Below the pieces are notes generated by a model that searched no databases, was not told where the DNA came from, and saw only the letters and a list, made by a program, of their open reading frames with translations. The translations under genes were made by a program, and so were the position numbers. From Elusimicrobiota bacterium (GTDB taxonomy: Bacteria > Elusimicrobiota > Elusimicrobia > 2-02-FULL-39-32): a stretch of 64,000 bases of DNA. The stretch lies in NCBI GenBank assembly GCA_021730935.1, contig JAKFYJ010000015.1, positions 1 through 64,000 of the forward strand. Reading direction: 5' to 3'. Below, piece by piece: positions 41,799-51,323 of the stretch. How positions within the stretch are numbered: position 1 is the stretch's first letter; the number at the start of each line of letters is the position of its first letter.

Positions 41799-44483
<2,685 letters not shown>

Positions 44484-44487
<4 letters not shown>

Positions 44488-45617
44488 GGCTTTTTTACGA
44501 TAATAGCGCCGATCGGGCCGCCGAACCCAAACGAAAGAGACATCGCGTGAGTCATGGCCCGGGATTTCCCGCGCTTGGGAGTATAATCCAGATCGCAGGC
44601 GGGATCCGGGTTTGTGAGCCCCGCAGTCGGTGGAACAAATTGATCTCTCAATGCCAGGCACGTCATGCCAAGTTCAACGCTCCCTGCCGCGCCCAAAAGA
44701 TGTCCCGTGGACGCCTTGGTGCTGGAAAATGAAATGTGTTTGAGAGAGTCTTTAAAAATATTTTTTACGGCCAAAGTTTCGATGACATCGTTCGATTCTG
44801 TTCCTGTGCCGTGCAGATTCACATAATCGATTTTGTCCGGCGTCAAAGACGCGTCTTTCAAAGCTCGGGCAACCACGCTCGCGACGGAACTTCCGTCTTC
44901 TTTGAACCGCGTGGGATGAGTCGAATCCGAACCCACGGCACAGCCGGAGATTTCCGCAATAATATTGGCTCCGCGCGACAAGGCATCAGATTTTCTCTCA
45001 AGGATGACAATGCCCGCGCCCTCGCCCATTAAAAATCCGTCCCGCGTATGGTCGAAAGGTTTGGGCTCTTTGGACAACACTCCCATGTTTTTAAAGCCCG
45101 AAATGGTGAGAGGATTCAGAGACGATTCACAGGATCCCGCGATCACGATTTTACACAGACCTTCCTGGAGCCAGCGGGACCCGGCCAGAACTGAATGAAT
45201 TCCTGTGGCGCAGGCGGCCACAAAATTTTGGGTCGGCCCCTCGATGTCGAGCTTTTCCAGCAAATATTGTCCAACGGATTCCGCGTGGATCGGCTCATCA
45301 ATTCCGTCCTGAAAAATAGGCTTTGAAACTGAAACGGAACAGCCGATGTCTTCGGGCAGATAGTCATCGATATCAATCTGCGCGTGGTTGAGAGCTTCGT
45401 GCGCCGAGCTCAAAGCGATCGGGAAAATTCTGTGTCTTGCCTGAGGGGCGAGGAAAGGGGCGGTCCTCACATAAAGCCCGAGATTTTCAGAAAACTCCAG
45501 AGCGTTTTGAACCGCGGAAACGCTTTGACCCATCTTGACATAACCCCAGGTCTTTTCGCGCGCACATCCCAATGGCGTGATCAGCCCGATTCCCGTGATC
45601 ACAATGCTTTCCCGCAT
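44484..45617 (-). CDS. Beta-ketoacyl-ACP synthase (FabF-like) in biotin operon
   Basis: AACATGIHS (catalytic Cys), NLHGTGTESND, KASTGHLLGAAG; KAS triad intact. Confidence 0.9.
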
Positions 45618-46352
45618 TTAAATCACTCTCGATTCGAAATTATAAACCTGACCGCTCGCGGACTTCTGCTTGGCGATGAACAAAACAAACTGCGCGAGCT
45701 CGCGGATGTCCGTCAGGCGTTCCAGAGTGTGTTCGGAGCGGATCCGCTCTTCATATTTTCCCCACACTTCGCGGCCCATGTCCGTCAGATGAAACCCAGG
45801 CAAAATTGCGTTCACGCGGACATTGAACCGTCCCAACTCTTTCGCGGCGGATTTTGTGAGAGCGATCACTCCCGCCTTGGCCGCGGCATAATTTGCGTTC
45901 CCGATGGAGCCCCGCATGGCGACGATGGAGGAAATATTGAGGATCGCGCCTTCTTTTTGCTCAACCATAATTTTGGAACAATCCCTCAGGCACCAGAAGG
46001 ATCCGCTCAAATTTGTCTGCAGCACCTCGTTCCATTCTGCGTCGGTCATTTTGAGGATGGTGCGGTCTCGCGTGATGCCGGCATTGTTGACCAGGACATC
46101 GATCCTGCCCCATTGTTTCATCACTTTTTGAATCATATCCTGAACCTGCTGAGAATCTCCGACGTCGGCTTTGACAACAAGTGGTTTTCCGCCCAGCTGA
46201 GTGGTTTGTTTCTCCACTTCCCGCGCCTTGGCTTCATTCAGATGATAGTTGAGCGCAAGGCGGAACCCATCACGAGCGAAAGCCAGGGCAATTTCTTTCC
46301 CGATGCCTCGGGAAGCCCCTGTGATGAGCGCGACGGGAGCGTCAATCATCAT
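45618..46352 (-). CDS. 3-oxoacyl-ACP reductase-like SDR (FabG-like) in biotin operon
   Basis: LITGASRGIGKEIALAFA; NNAGITRD; YAAAKAG. Confidence 0.92.
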   Translation of the reverse strand: MMIDAPVALITGASRGIGKEIALAFARDGFRLALNYHLNEAKAREVEKQTTQLGGKPLVVKADVGDSQQVQDMIQKVMKQWGRIDVLVNNAGITRDRTILKMTDAEWNEVLQTNLSGSFWCLRDCSKIMVEQKEGAILNISSIVAMRGSIGNANYAAAKAGVIALTKSAAKELGRFNVRVNAILPGFHLTDMGREVWGKYEERIRSEHTLERLTDIRELAQFVLFIAKQKSASGQVYNFESRVI

Positions 46353-46358
46353 GTCTGT

Positions 46359-47393
46359 TTATTTGAGCTGGACGGCAAACGCCCCGTCCGTCGAATGAGA
46401 TGCATGTGTCATGTCAGGATCCTGCCCTTCAATTTCAAAACCCAGGTCCCGGATCATATTGAGGTCTTCTTCCGGTTTCTGACCTTTGGTCGTGAGATAA
46501 TCCCCGACGAAAATGGAGTTGGCGACATAAAGCCCGAGCGGCTGGAGCCACCGCAGCTGGACTTCGCGTCCGCCGGCGATCCGAATTTCAGAAGCGGGAT
46601 TCAAAAATCTGAAGAGACAGAGGATCTTGAGGCATTTTTGCGGCGTGAGATGTTTCAGCTCCGCAAGCGGCGTCCCTTCGATCGGGATCAGGAAATTGAT
46701 GGGAATGGAGTCCACATTCATGCCGCGCAAGGTATACGCCAGCTCAACGATGTCGCTGTCAGGTTCTCCCATTCCGAAAAGGCATCCGCTGCAGGACGAT
46801 AACCCATGCTCTTTCGCCGTGCTGACGGTGCCGAGCCGGTCTTTATAGGTGTGAGTCGAGCATATCGATGAATAATGATTTTCGGTCGTGTTCACATTGT
46901 GGTTATAAGCGTCCACTCCGGCTTCTTTCAAGGCCTGGGCCTGTTTGGGCGCAAGCAATCCAAGACAGACGCAGACTTCGAGTTCAGGATAATTTTCCCG
47001 GACTTTGCGGACCGCGGAAGAAACCTGCTCGATCTCTCCGTCTGTGGGACCCCGTCCGGAATTCACCATGCAGAACCGTTTGGCTTTGGAGTCCCTGGCG
47101 CGAGCGGCCGCCGAAAGAATATCCTCCTCCGAGAGAAAAACATATTTTTCGATGCCCGCCTTGGAAATTTTGGACTGGGAACAATAGGAGCAGTCTTCCG
47201 GACAAAGACCGGACTTGGCGTTCAGCAAAAAATTGAGTTTGACGCGTTTGCCGAAATGCCTGAACCGGACTTTGGAAGCCGCGGCCAGGAGGGGCAGAAT
47301 TTCGTCATCGCCCGCGTTCAGCACCGCAAACGCCTCTTCGCGCGTGAGCTCGTTTCCTTCAAGGGATTTTGATGCAAGTTCGTTCCAGTTCAT
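46359..47393 (-). CDS. bioB: Biotin synthase
   Basis: SGLCPEDCSYCSQS radical SAM motif; YNHNVNTT; start at MNWNEL, just after the upstream stop. Confidence 0.97.
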   Translation of the reverse strand: MNWNELASKSLEGNELTREEAFAVLNAGDDEILPLLAAASKVRFRHFGKRVKLNFLLNAKSGLCPEDCSYCSQSKISKAGIEKYVFLSEEDILSAAARARDSKAKRFCMVNSGRGPTDGEIEQVSSAVRKVRENYPELEVCVCLGLLAPKQAQALKEAGVDAYNHNVNTTENHYSSICSTHTYKDRLGTVSTAKEHGLSSCSGCLFGMGEPDSDIVELAYTLRGMNVDSIPINFLIPIEGTPLAELKHLTPQKCLKILCLFRFLNPASEIRIAGGREVQLRWLQPLGLYVANSIFVGDYLTTKGQKPEEDLNMIRDLGFEIEGQDPDMTHASHSTDGAFAVQLK

Positions 47394-47394
47394 T

Positions 47395-48780
47395 TCATCC
47401 GCCTTTGGGCTTTCCGATTTTTTCGTAACCCTTTTCGACATAATTCGTCAAATAATTTTTTGAATACGCATAATTGGGATCAAGCTTAAGTGAATTTTCA
47501 AAAGCCATTTTTGATTTATCCAGGTATTCGACGCGGGACTCATGCGCGGTCCATAAAATCCAATATGCCGCCCCCAAACCGGCAAAATACGACGGCTCAG
47601 TCGGATCAAGTTCAACCGTTCTTTGATAAAGGGCGGCCGCATCTTCATATTTGCCGATCGAATAGGCATATGTGCCTGATTCATAAAACGCCGTTATCCA
47701 ATTGCCCGTTGCGATTCCCACAAGGTTAAATTTCAAAAGTTCTTTCATTTGATCCAAAGCCGCGTCCGGCTTTTTTGCCTGAGTCGCGATTTGCACATAA
47801 CGGAATCGGTTCCTCAGGTCATTGGGAAATGTTGAAAAATAAATTTGATAGGCTCCCTCAATGTCTTTCCACACATTATCCTGGCTCAAATATTTTGCTT
47901 CAGCGGGTTTGTCCTTCCCGGCCGCCAGCCAGAAAGCGCTTTCAATCTCAGAATGTGTTTCAGGAATGATCAAATAAAGCGCAGGATGGCGAAGGGCGTC
48001 TTTGCGGCACTCCTCAGCGAAATCAAGCATCTGTTCAGTCGAGCCCCCCCATCTGGGCTGCAAATAATTCAACTTGATGAAACAGGCGTTTAAGTTCCCC
48101 GGATCGGAGGCCATGGCTCTTTGAAAGTATTTTTCTTTATCTTTATAGGGACGGTTCTGTCCCAAAGCGACCGTCATCATATAACAGGATGAATACGGAT
48201 TGTTTTTGTTTAAGCGGTAAGATTCTTCCAGGTCTTCTTCGGCCAGTTTCAGTCGCTTCATGAAAAGTTTCCAGCCGACTTTGGAAACGTTCTGCGCAAA
48301 ACTATACCCCCGCGCCTCCCAAGCATAGTGCACATAAAATCCCCCTCGGACCAGAAACGGAACATGAGAACCGGCGGACTTATCGCACCACTCATTCAGG
48401 GTTGAAAGAATTTCCGACACTTTCATTTTAGACACTGTTTTCACATAGTCCTCAGAAAGCGCTTCCAATAAACGATCAAGGATATTCATTGAATTCCTGT
48501 CGCCGCCTCGCGCCAGGTTCAGCAACCGCTCAACTTCCCGTTCCACTGCAGAAAAATCTTTTTGGATATACAGCGTTTTTATCCAGGGCGTAAAATCATA
48601 GCTTTGAACAACGATCAATGGCGCTGGGTCGGCGGCGGTCGGGGTTGTGACCATTTTAGCCAGATCAGGCGCATGTTTAGGGAGTTGGTATTCGAACTTG
48701 CGCAGCATCCCCCTGTTGGCATATATTCCGGCAGATAGAACCGCGAACAACAATGCGAGCAAAATAAATAATCGTTTCAT
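47395..48780 (-). CDS. TPR-repeat protein with signal peptide/TM, first gene of biotin operon
   Basis: MKRLFILLALLFAVLSAGIYANRG; TPR-like AALYQRTVELDPTEPSYFAGLGAAYW. GGAGG 8 nt before ATG at 48780; ORF-track start 48795 is less likely. Confidence 0.8.
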   Translation of the reverse strand: MKRLFILLALLFAVLSAGIYANRGMLRKFEYQLPKHAPDLAKMVTTPTAADPAPLIVVQSYDFTPWIKTLYIQKDFSAVEREVERLLNLARGGDRNSMNILDRLLEALSEDYVKTVSKMKVSEILSTLNEWCDKSAGSHVPFLVRGGFYVHYAWEARGYSFAQNVSKVGWKLFMKRLKLAEEDLEESYRLNKNNPYSSCYMMTVALGQNRPYKDKEKYFQRAMASDPGNLNACFIKLNYLQPRWGGSTEQMLDFAEECRKDALRHPALYLIIPETHSEIESAFWLAAGKDKPAEAKYLSQDNVWKDIEGAYQIYFSTFPNDLRNRFRYVQIATQAKKPDAALDQMKELLKFNLVGIATGNWITAFYESGTYAYSIGKYEDAAALYQRTVELDPTEPSYFAGLGAAYWILWTAHESRVEYLDKSKMAFENSLKLDPNYAYSKNYLTNYVEKGYEKIGKPKGG

Positions 48781-48781
48781 A

Positions 48782-48815
48782 TTGTCAACCTCCATTGGCG
48801 CCTCAAGGTTGACAA
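48782..48815. promoter_or_regulatory. Candidate BirA (biotin repressor) operator
   Basis: TTGTCAACC-N16-GGTTGACAA perfect dyad, same 9-16-9 layout as E. coli bioO (TTGTAAACC-N16-GGTTTACAA); directly upstream of TPR-bioB operon. Confidence 0.85.
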
Positions 48816-48855
48816 TAATTCTATCATATCAGGATCGTCCAATTGAACGTCCAGG

Positions 48856-48890: not shown

Positions 48891-51323
48891 ATGAGAAAGT
48901 TGTGGATCGGCCTGCTCCTAATTTTTGCCGGCGCCCTGTTTGTGGGGTATCGGCTGAACAGAGAATGGACCGCTCACCCAGCTCCTCTTGCGCGAACCCC
49001 GCTGCAGGAAGACATTTTTCAAAATCCGCCCTTGGAACCGGAACTGGAAGCGTTTATTCCGGACGGAGCGGTTGCTCTCATCGGAGTCAGGGGACTGAAA
49101 GGCCTTTTGGGCCGATTTTCCTCGACAAATCTTTATATCCATTATGAACAATCCATTTCCAGCGCTGTCCGGAAAGCAGAAGAAACATACGGCGCAAAAA
49201 ACTTATCGAAACGCTATCTGTCCGACACGTCTTCCATTGAAACGATCATTGGAGAAAGCATGGTTGTCGCTTTCTATCCCAAACCTTCCAAAATCATCCC
49301 CGCAGCTTATACAGGCCTCCCCGGAACACAAGATCCCATGCCGGGGTCCGCATACAAACCCGACCCTATTCTGCTCATTTCAAAAACCCAGCCGCAGGCA
49401 GAAAAACAAATTGAAGAATGGGTCAAACCTTATGCCGCCCTGTTGAGCAGACAGGGTTATGGAAGAAATTTCATCCAATCCCTTAACAAATATGTTTTCT
49501 GGGCATTTCTGACGAAAGGGAAATCCCGATGGATCTTTGTCGGAAATACCCTCGATACCGTCAAGAAGGCCCTCGACTTGGCAACGGCTCAATCTGACAA
49601 GAAACCGCTTTCCGAAGGGGAATGGGTGAAGAAGTCGTTTAAAAAACTTCCCAAAGACGCGTTTGGCTATGTCCTCCTTAATCTCAACGGCATTCCTGGA
49701 GCGAGAAACAAAATGTCCTATTTTCCAATTGTCCCCGATTGGTATTGCCAGAGTTTGACCTGGAAGGATGGAGTGGAAGTTCATGGCTTTTTGAACTCAA
49801 ACCCGGAACTGGAGAATTCAGCCTTCGGACCTTTGACCAAGATCGGACCTTCGGATTATCCGATTCTTCGCCTGATCCCAGACCCAACCCTTGCGGTGAC
49901 CGCCACGAATTCTCTCACGCCGGAAGCCGCCGAAAACATTCTGGACGATCTTCTGCTCAGAGGCGCCTTATTGCCCAAGAAACTGTCCGAATCTATCGGT
50001 AAATGGAAAAAGGATATCGCGGGCCAAGCCTGTGAACAAGCTTATGCCGCCTATAATGGGTTTCAAAAATCAGGTTCGGAATATCTCCCGGATGTATTTG
50101 GCGCAGTCCAGATTGCGTCTCAACTTAAAGTTCAGGCCGCCCTGGAGATCGCCAGGAAACTGCTGGACTCCAAGGATTCTGACGCCTCTCTGGAAAAGAA
50201 ACTGCTGGAAGGTTACGGCTCTTATTTCACCCTGACTTACAAAGACCCCGCCGGCAGGGGAAAAAAAATATTCATGGCTCAAAATGGGAATTATCTCCTC
50301 TTCGCTTCAAACGAGAACCGGATCAAAAGTCTCTTGATCAAGGGGACCCATTCTTCCCAATCAATTTACGCCATTGCCGCGAATTTGCCGGCGCAAGGCA
50401 ATGCGACGATTTTTTATGATATCCGGGGATTGTATGAAAATTGGATCCAGGTGGGCATCGAAGAAGCCGCACTGAAAACCGGGAACCCCTGGCTCATGAA
50501 GTATCGGGAATCCTTGATGGCCTGGCTGGAATTTTTCTCCGGATTCAAAGGCGGGACCACAATCCTTTCAAATACGCAAAAAGGACTCAGCATCCGATCC
50601 TTTTATCCATACCAGGACTACACCTACGAACAGTGGGAACAGAAATTATTTAATTTTAAGCCTCGGATGCGGGAGTGGACTTTGGCCGGGATCCAGTCCA
50701 GGATTCTTTACGACACATATATGATCCAGTATACCGTGAACTCCGCGATCCAAAACTATAAAAAGAGAGCTCATAAAAACCCGCCGACCCTGCGTTCCCT
50801 GGTTCCAAAATATTTGAGCGCCATTCCGGAAAACCCATTAAGCGAAACTCAAACTGTCCATTCCACTCTCGACGGAAAAGGCGGCTGGTACTATAACCCG
50901 ATCACCGGCACAGCCGTGCTCAATTTTTCGAACGTAAAGCTTTTTCCGGGATATCTCGCGCCTGCAGGCAACGCGGCTTCTGAAAAAAATGAAGATTCCG
51001 GCAAATACGATGTCAAAGCTTTCAGTTATCCGTCCTACATGGACAAAGAAGAAACCACGCGCAAAAACCTGCTTTCCCTGAGAGACGCCCTGTTGCTTTT
51101 TAGCGATGATCACAACGGCGATGTTCCGGAAAAGATAAAAGACTTGGTCCCGAAATATATTAAAAGCATCCCCATCGCTTCTCTCGAAAACCACCCAAAC
51201 TCCAACAAAATTTCTTCAACATTGGACGACAAGGGCGGGTGGTATTACCTGCCAAATAAGGCCATGATCAAAATTAACTGCACTCACAGCGACCATGAGG
51301 GATCACCTTATTATAACTGGTAA
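48891..51323 (+). CDS. Hypothetical anchored protein (DUF3352-like) with two pseudopilin-like C-terminal modules
   Basis: N-terminal TM; two repeats of LVPKYLSAIP...STLDGKGGWYYNP. Confidence 0.75.
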   Translation: MRKLWIGLLLIFAGALFVGYRLNREWTAHPAPLARTPLQEDIFQNPPLEPELEAFIPDGAVALIGVRGLKGLLGRFSSTNLYIHYEQSISSAVRKAEETYGAKNLSKRYLSDTSSIETIIGESMVVAFYPKPSKIIPAAYTGLPGTQDPMPGSAYKPDPILLISKTQPQAEKQIEEWVKPYAALLSRQGYGRNFIQSLNKYVFWAFLTKGKSRWIFVGNTLDTVKKALDLATAQSDKKPLSEGEWVKKSFKKLPKDAFGYVLLNLNGIPGARNKMSYFPIVPDWYCQSLTWKDGVEVHGFLNSNPELENSAFGPLTKIGPSDYPILRLIPDPTLAVTATNSLTPEAAENILDDLLLRGALLPKKLSESIGKWKKDIAGQACEQAYAAYNGFQKSGSEYLPDVFGAVQIASQLKVQAALEIARKLLDSKDSDASLEKKLLEGYGSYFTLTYKDPAGRGKKIFMAQNGNYLLFASNENRIKSLLIKGTHSSQSIYAIAANLPAQGNATIFYDIRGLYENWIQVGIEEAALKTGNPWLMKYRESLMAWLEFFSGFKGGTTILSNTQKGLSIRSFYPYQDYTYEQWEQKLFNFKPRMREWTLAGIQSRILYDTYMIQYTVNSAIQNYKKRAHKNPPTLRSLVPKYLSAIPENPLSETQTVHSTLDGKGGWYYNPITGTAVLNFSNVKLFPGYLAPAGNAASEKNEDSGKYDVKAFSYPSYMDKEETTRKNLLSLRDALLLFSDDHNGDVPEKIKDLVPKYIKSIPIASLENHPNSNKISSTLDDKGGWYYLPNKAMIKINCTHSDHEGSPYYNW

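Follow-up and report, generated by a model that had tools for sequence, protein, structure and literature searches.

A perfect inverted repeat lies upstream of a run of biotin genes in a 64,000-nucleotide stretch of DNA from an Elusimicrobiota bacterium (positions 1 to 64,000 of contig JAKFYJ010000015.1, assembly GCA_021730935.1), which we call the window. The original prediction, made from the letters of the window, described this dyad as a BirA-type operator of a bioB operon. Read directly, the core dyad is TTGTCAACC-N16-GGTTGACAA at 48782-48815. It is perfect, its sequence and coordinates are exactly those predicted, and its arms are even longer than had been claimed, remaining perfect over 12 bp each (TATTGTCAACCT-N14-AGGTTGACAATA, 48780-48817). 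We find that the dyad is very probably the operator of the biotin repressor BirA. The locus contains the following features.

48780..48817, no strand: predicted BirA operator (bioO-like), full dyad TATTGTCAACCT-N14-AGGTTGACAATA, core 48782-48815; kept in relatives
48818..48823, minus: candidate -10 box TAGAAT, lying upstream of the operator core at a distance of 3 bp; aligned with relatives
48823-48828, minus: alternative -10 TATGAT, overlapping TAGAAT
48788..48793, minus: Shine-Dalgarno GGAGG of the tetratricopeptide repeat (TPR) gene, overlapping the operator's downstream arm; direct reading
47395..48780, minus: TPR and DUF4034 protein (Pfam), N-terminus probably a signal peptide (by eye); the gene next to the operator on its downstream side
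46359..47393, minus: bioB, biotin synthase, start MNWN (TIGR00433, 399 bits; start by comparison with relatives)
45618..46352, minus: short-chain dehydrogenase/reductase (SDR), FabG-like 3-oxoacyl-acyl carrier protein (ACP) reductase (PF00106/PF13561)
44484..45617, minus: FabF-like beta-ketoacyl-ACP synthase (KAS), a divergent paralogue of the housekeeping FabF with Cys-His-Lys-His kept
43345..44487, minus: bioF, 8-amino-7-oxononanoate synthase (TIGR00858, over cut-off)
42674..43348, minus: bioD, dethiobiotin synthase (TIGR00347, over cut-off)
41799..42695, minus: CPBP (Rce1-like) membrane protease (PF02517), overlapping the end of bioD

The dyad and BirA of this genome

The core dyad is the sole match at <=3 mismatches in the window, where dinucleotide shuffles expect 0.02. 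A scan of the whole 2.7 Mb draft genome, one of the checks proposed with the original prediction, found a single copy with spacer 16 at <=3 mismatches, and the same dyad with spacer 15 was not found there. Perfect 9-bp inverted repeats with spacers of 10-20 number only two in the window, the dyad and one unrelated repeat. The dyad matches the palindrome form of BirA operators, TTGTnAACC-N14..16-GGTTnACAA. It also has the expected placement in a promoter region before biotin biosynthesis genes, with a -10 box 3 bp upstream and TPR-bioB-SDR-KAS-bioF-bioD downstream. The claim that half-site length and spacer are those of Escherichia coli bioO was borne out against E. coli genomes: bioO, TTGTAAACC-N16-GGTTTACAA, contained in a 79-base query, matches 5,389 of 5,426 of them.

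The original prediction called for a BirA with an N-terminal helix-turn-helix (HTH), and the genome encodes one. Only one BirA (L001:1165-2133) exceeds the ligase-model cut-off (TIGR00121, birA_ligase, 197.9 bits). It has an N-terminal HTH_11 domain (PF08279, 43.5 bits) followed by a ligase domain (PF03099, 79.5 bits), and its score with the repressor-region model TIGR00122 is 46.3 bits, under the cut-off of 70. By its domain content this BirA is a group II biotin-protein ligase, that is, a winged HTH joined to a catalytic ligase domain. Its gene adjoins one that we read by eye as nadC. A second match to the biotin/lipoate ligase family (BPL/LplA/LipB; L002) was rejected as a second BirA; we take it by eye as lipoate-ligase-like, and its neighbour reads as a glycine-cleavage gene.

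Conservation of the dyad and of the BirA helix-turn-helix

Judged by BioB, the closest relatives with a name are Elusimicrobia metagenome-assembled genomes. We looked for bioB in 98 genomes, 18 of which carry it, and for the core TGTCAACC-N14..18-GGTTGACA, together with a reversed control pattern, in 235 genomes of the class. The perfect 8+8 core was found in 10 of the 235, with one site each, and each of these ten belongs to the 18 with bioB; the control pattern gave 0 matches in the same 235. Were genomes independent, which related ones are not, all ten would fall among those 18 of the 98 with a probability of about 3e-9. Every one of the ten sites lies upstream of bioB, at a distance of about 1.1 kb in G033, where another open reading frame (ORF) stands between. 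Three further bioB genomes (G004, G008 and G012) have a site with one mismatch. The arms hold while the spacer varies in sequence and in length (15-17 nt between the 8-mer cores in perfect-core carriers, 16 in the window). A dyad at <=1 mismatch was not found at any of 77 bioB loci from outside the phylum, most of them from Actinobacteria and Planctomycetes.

BirA was readable in 15 of the 18 bioB genomes. Nine encode an HTH-bearing BirA (G000, G002, G003, G004, where it is split over two contigs, G006, G012, G013, G022 and G036), and the dyad, at <=1 mismatch, is present in all nine. The BirA of the other six (G007, G008, G011, G020, G027 and G032) has no HTH; the dyad is absent from five of these, and G008 has a one-mismatch copy. 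The association between HTH and dyad has a Fisher p of about 0.002, with phylogeny ignored. Phylogenetic footprinting thus gave the result anticipated: relatives with an HTH-bearing BirA keep the dyad in front of their bioB orthologues. Together with the HTH-bearing BirA of this genome, this conservation supports the view of the dyad as a BirA-type operator upstream of a bioB operon, and neither of the two outcomes named beforehand as refuting it was obtained.

The HTH is missing in two separate lineages, family f4 and genus g6. In genus g6 (G007 and G008) the ligase core comes directly after nadC (L136:1495-2349 in G007; L137:232-1086 in G008), and no HTH remnant was found in three forward frames upstream or by tblastn. 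Because of this direct junction and the lack of a remnant, we conclude that the HTH was lost in place in both genomes. A weak HTH match in G007 (L169) was rejected as BirA; it belongs to a longer protein, the core of which looks Fic-like by eye. In the bioB-less genomes examined, ligases with readable N-termini show no HTH (by eye).

These patterns bear on the idea that a transcription factor other than BirA binds the dyad before bioB. Dedicated biotin repressors that are not BirA occur in other groups, namely BioR (PMC4554459) and BioL (PMC12915131). However, the sequence and spacing of the dyad are of the BirA-site type, and its presence follows the BirA HTH in the same genomes, the dyad being absent or damaged where the HTH is lost. 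We therefore regard another factor as very unlikely and favour BirA.

Promoter geometry and alternatives to a DNA operator

The candidate -10 box TAGAAT (48823-48818, minus strand) is followed, 3 bp on, by the TGTCAACC core. In an alignment, relatives have TACAAT, TATAAT, TATAGT or TAGAAT in the same place, which agrees with the earlier placement of the dyad just downstream of plausible -10 elements (TATGAT/TAGAAT, minus strand). Six carriers of the window's family (G000-G004 and G006) have such a -10, ending 1-3 bp upstream of the core, so in this family the dyad covers the predicted transcription start. In carriers of other families an upstream -10 of that kind was not seen. The right arm of G036 itself gives TTGACA-N16-TACAAT, with the -10 downstream, and that of G033, less clearly, gives TTGACA-N15-GATACT. 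In these families the operator may cover a -35, fitting repression. In both arrangements, repressor bound at the dyad would sit on DNA of the core promoter.

On the side of the genes, the dyad had been placed directly before the TPR run. It does adjoin the run, but it is not wholly before it: it overlaps the TPR Shine-Dalgarno, and the extended arm touches the A of the TPR ATG at 48780. This start was preferred to the ORF call at 48795 as it has a Shine-Dalgarno and a signal-like N-terminus. On the other side, a divergent 810-aa protein (48891-51323, plus strand) without a Pfam or NCBIfam match begins about 75 bp from the operator.

The dyad could instead act in RNA, as a 5' leader hairpin that masks the first gene's Shine-Dalgarno and controls translation. 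Transcribed in full, the dyad folds well (-21.9 kcal/mol, z -2.1) with GGAGG paired. Such a hairpin is possible only with a transcription start upstream of the dyad, however, and with a start within the left arm, near the predicted one, it is gone (z 0.2). In several relatives the dyad is far upstream of the bioB start (>50 nt in L109, >1 kb in L117) and cannot hide its Shine-Dalgarno. The arms are kept in sequence and not just in pairing, the leader has no Rfam match, and a hairpin gives no reason to expect that dyad and BirA HTH occur together. We find control through RNA highly improbable.

The suggestion that the arms are promoter parts, with GGTTGACA giving a TTGACA -35 and the symmetry being incidental or serving divergent promoters, is almost certainly wrong: the right arm does give TTGACA-N16-TATTTT in the window (10/12, minus strand) and the boxes described above in G036 and G033, but a -35 needs no upstream TGTCAACC, which is kept in all carriers, the -10 of the window's family is upstream of the dyad, and no BirA link is predicted.

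Several observations weigh against a BirA operator. G008 has a nearly intact dyad though its BirA is without the HTH, which may reflect a recent loss or a site that is read otherwise. Related genomes are non-independent samples in both the HTH-dyad and the bioB-dyad counts. In G001, G028 and G033 the dyad is present and no BirA was recovered from the drafts, of which G028 and G033 are listed as >90% complete. The -35 boxes are poor in the window's family, and the window itself has no good one. Last, bioA lies on a separate contig and lacks a dyad, searches before it having given 3-mismatch noise only; the predicted operator therefore does not cover all biotin genes.

Genes under the predicted operator

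The junctions of the run are tight. The TPR stop and the bioB start are 1 nt apart, SDR and KAS are 0 nt apart, and KAS-bioF and bioF-bioD are joined by ATGA overlaps. (A bioB start at 47441 was dropped for 47393 after comparison with relatives.) From these junctions we infer that the whole TPR-bioB-SDR-KAS-bioF-bioD run would be biotin-repressed. The conserved unit is bioB-SDR-KAS-bioF-bioD, which is found together in every relative whose contig spans it.

The TPR gene falls outside this conserved unit. Among 31 genomes searched it occurs in this one only, with no match in the 30 relatives. Because the relatives are without it and mostly have the operator directly before bioB, the TPR gene was probably inserted between operator and bioB. 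It is rather likely that it is a mere passenger there, with no role in biotin metabolism, which would refine the BirA reading and not compete with it. The 1-nt junction with bioB speaks against a passenger, as it suggests coupled expression. At the other end, the CPBP protease gene is possibly the last gene of the transcript; no match to it was found in the bio loci of relatives. By their position, both the TPR gene and this trailing protease gene would be co-repressed with the biotin genes. Next come genes that by eye encode Rieske and cytochrome b proteins, behind a 12/12 sigma-70-type promoter of their own (TTGACA-N16-TATAAT, 41774-41747, minus strand), and because of this consensus promoter they are probably outside the transcript.

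The run includes genes that are not normally counted as biotin genes. The housekeeping FabF of the same genome scores 632 bits and the operon KAS 284. Biotin KAS sequences group apart from housekeeping FabF sequences (quick tree, support 0.99), and they keep the Cys-His-Lys-His residues. The best NCBIfam match of the SDR is TIGR01830, under its cut-off. The biotin operon has a dedicated KAS and 3-oxoacyl-ACP reductase, as in a Desulfovibrio vulgaris-type route. No dedicated ACP gene or FabZ-like or other dehydratase gene was recognised between the TPR and CPBP protease genes in the window. No BioC exceeded the TIGR02072 cut-off in the 18 genomes; this cut-off is strict, passing only 1 of 14 control genomes, and a divergent BioC could escape it.

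Bio loci of relatives show other neighbours. In three of them an ABC transporter (ATPase and permease, by eye) lies within the biotin operon, between bioB and SDR (L103, 3784-5284; L104, 2944-4462; L105, 9154-10650). A gene that looks by eye like panD, for aspartate decarboxylase, points away from bioB at L103:6335-6673 and L102:10351-10737, with the operator in the short gap, and BirA might also affect panD at these two loci. A small conserved protein resembling PilZ (RRYPRIDLxLPIxYK, by eye) is encoded just upstream of the dyad in L109, L110, L114 and L116 (families f6 and f12).

Discussion

Our model starts from the dyad, its conservation, the HTH-bearing BirA, the co-occurrence and joint loss of the two, and the operon layout, all of which were observed directly. 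We propose that BirA doubles as repressor and as biotin-protein ligase. With ample biotin, BirA carrying biotinoyl-AMP would dimerise, and its two HTH domains would take the two arms. As the site in the window's family is directly downstream of the -10 and over the predicted start, the bound dimer would block RNA polymerase. The TPR-bioB-SDR-KAS-bioF-bioD transcript would then stay off until biotin falls. Ligand-dependent dimer binding and occlusion are modelled on BirA of E. coli and Bacillus subtilis.

This type of switch is already known. We found no earlier report of a BirA operator in Elusimicrobiota in the limited literature searched, and by that search this phylum appears to be a new one for it. 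Strong comparative evidence extends the BirA regulon to a mostly uncultured phylum. It also supports, from the side of regulation, counting the operon KAS and SDR among the biotin enzymes, a point of relevance to pimelate synthesis in bacteria without BioC.

A broader reading joins these points, and we offer it tentatively, at somewhat less than an even chance. It holds that repressor and operator were lost together naturally: the BirA HTH has gone in one genus and is absent in another family, and in both the bioB operator is gone or damaged. The BirA regulon of the carriers would be a minimal BioC-free pimelate module, in which a dedicated KAS and a FabG-like reductase work with a borrowed housekeeping ACP, dehydratase and enoyl reductase. 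The lineage-specific TPR gene would have been placed under biotin control.

The closest comparison is E. coli bioO, which has the same 9-bp core arms and 16-nt spacer (TTGTnAACC/GGTTnACAA) and is bound by a BirA with an N-terminal HTH. It differs at the fifth arm position, where the window has C/G and not A/T. E. coli has a divergent bioA/bioBFCD pair, whereas in the window one operon was identified with no such pair, and the dyad overlaps the TPR Shine-Dalgarno.

The BirA sites of delta-proteobacteria (Geobacter, Desulfuromonas and Desulfovibrio) read TTGTcAACC/GGTTgACAA and stand before bioB or bioF, one or two per genome (PMC545781). They have the same arm form as the Elusimicrobiota dyad, but their spacers between the 9-bp arms are 14-15 nt (PMC545781); the window has 16 and its relatives have 15-17. 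In D. vulgaris, the KAS, reductase, dehydratase and ACP genes of the biotin cluster are required for biotin-free growth, and BioC and BioH are absent (PMC10102598; predicted in PMC545781). A route without methyl esters has been proposed for its extended biotin operon, DVU2558-2565 (PMC10102598, PMC545781). Likened by gene content, both systems have FabF-like and FabG-like genes in a biotin operon that a BirA site is predicted to control; BioC is absent from D. vulgaris, and none passed the strict cut-off in the 18 genomes searched here. Unlike that of D. vulgaris, the Elusimicrobiota operon is without bioA, and in the window it is without a recognised ACP or FabZ gene.

Finally, deletion of the HTH converts B. 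subtilis BirA from group II to group I (PMC4016012). The ligase core of genus g6 resembles that engineered protein in being without a DNA-binding domain (PMC4016012). It differs in that the change is natural, the operator is absent or damaged, and the retained ligase activity is putative. In genus g6 a group II ligase thus appears to have become a group I ligase in nature, and its HTH loss is the natural counterpart of the one engineered in B. subtilis.
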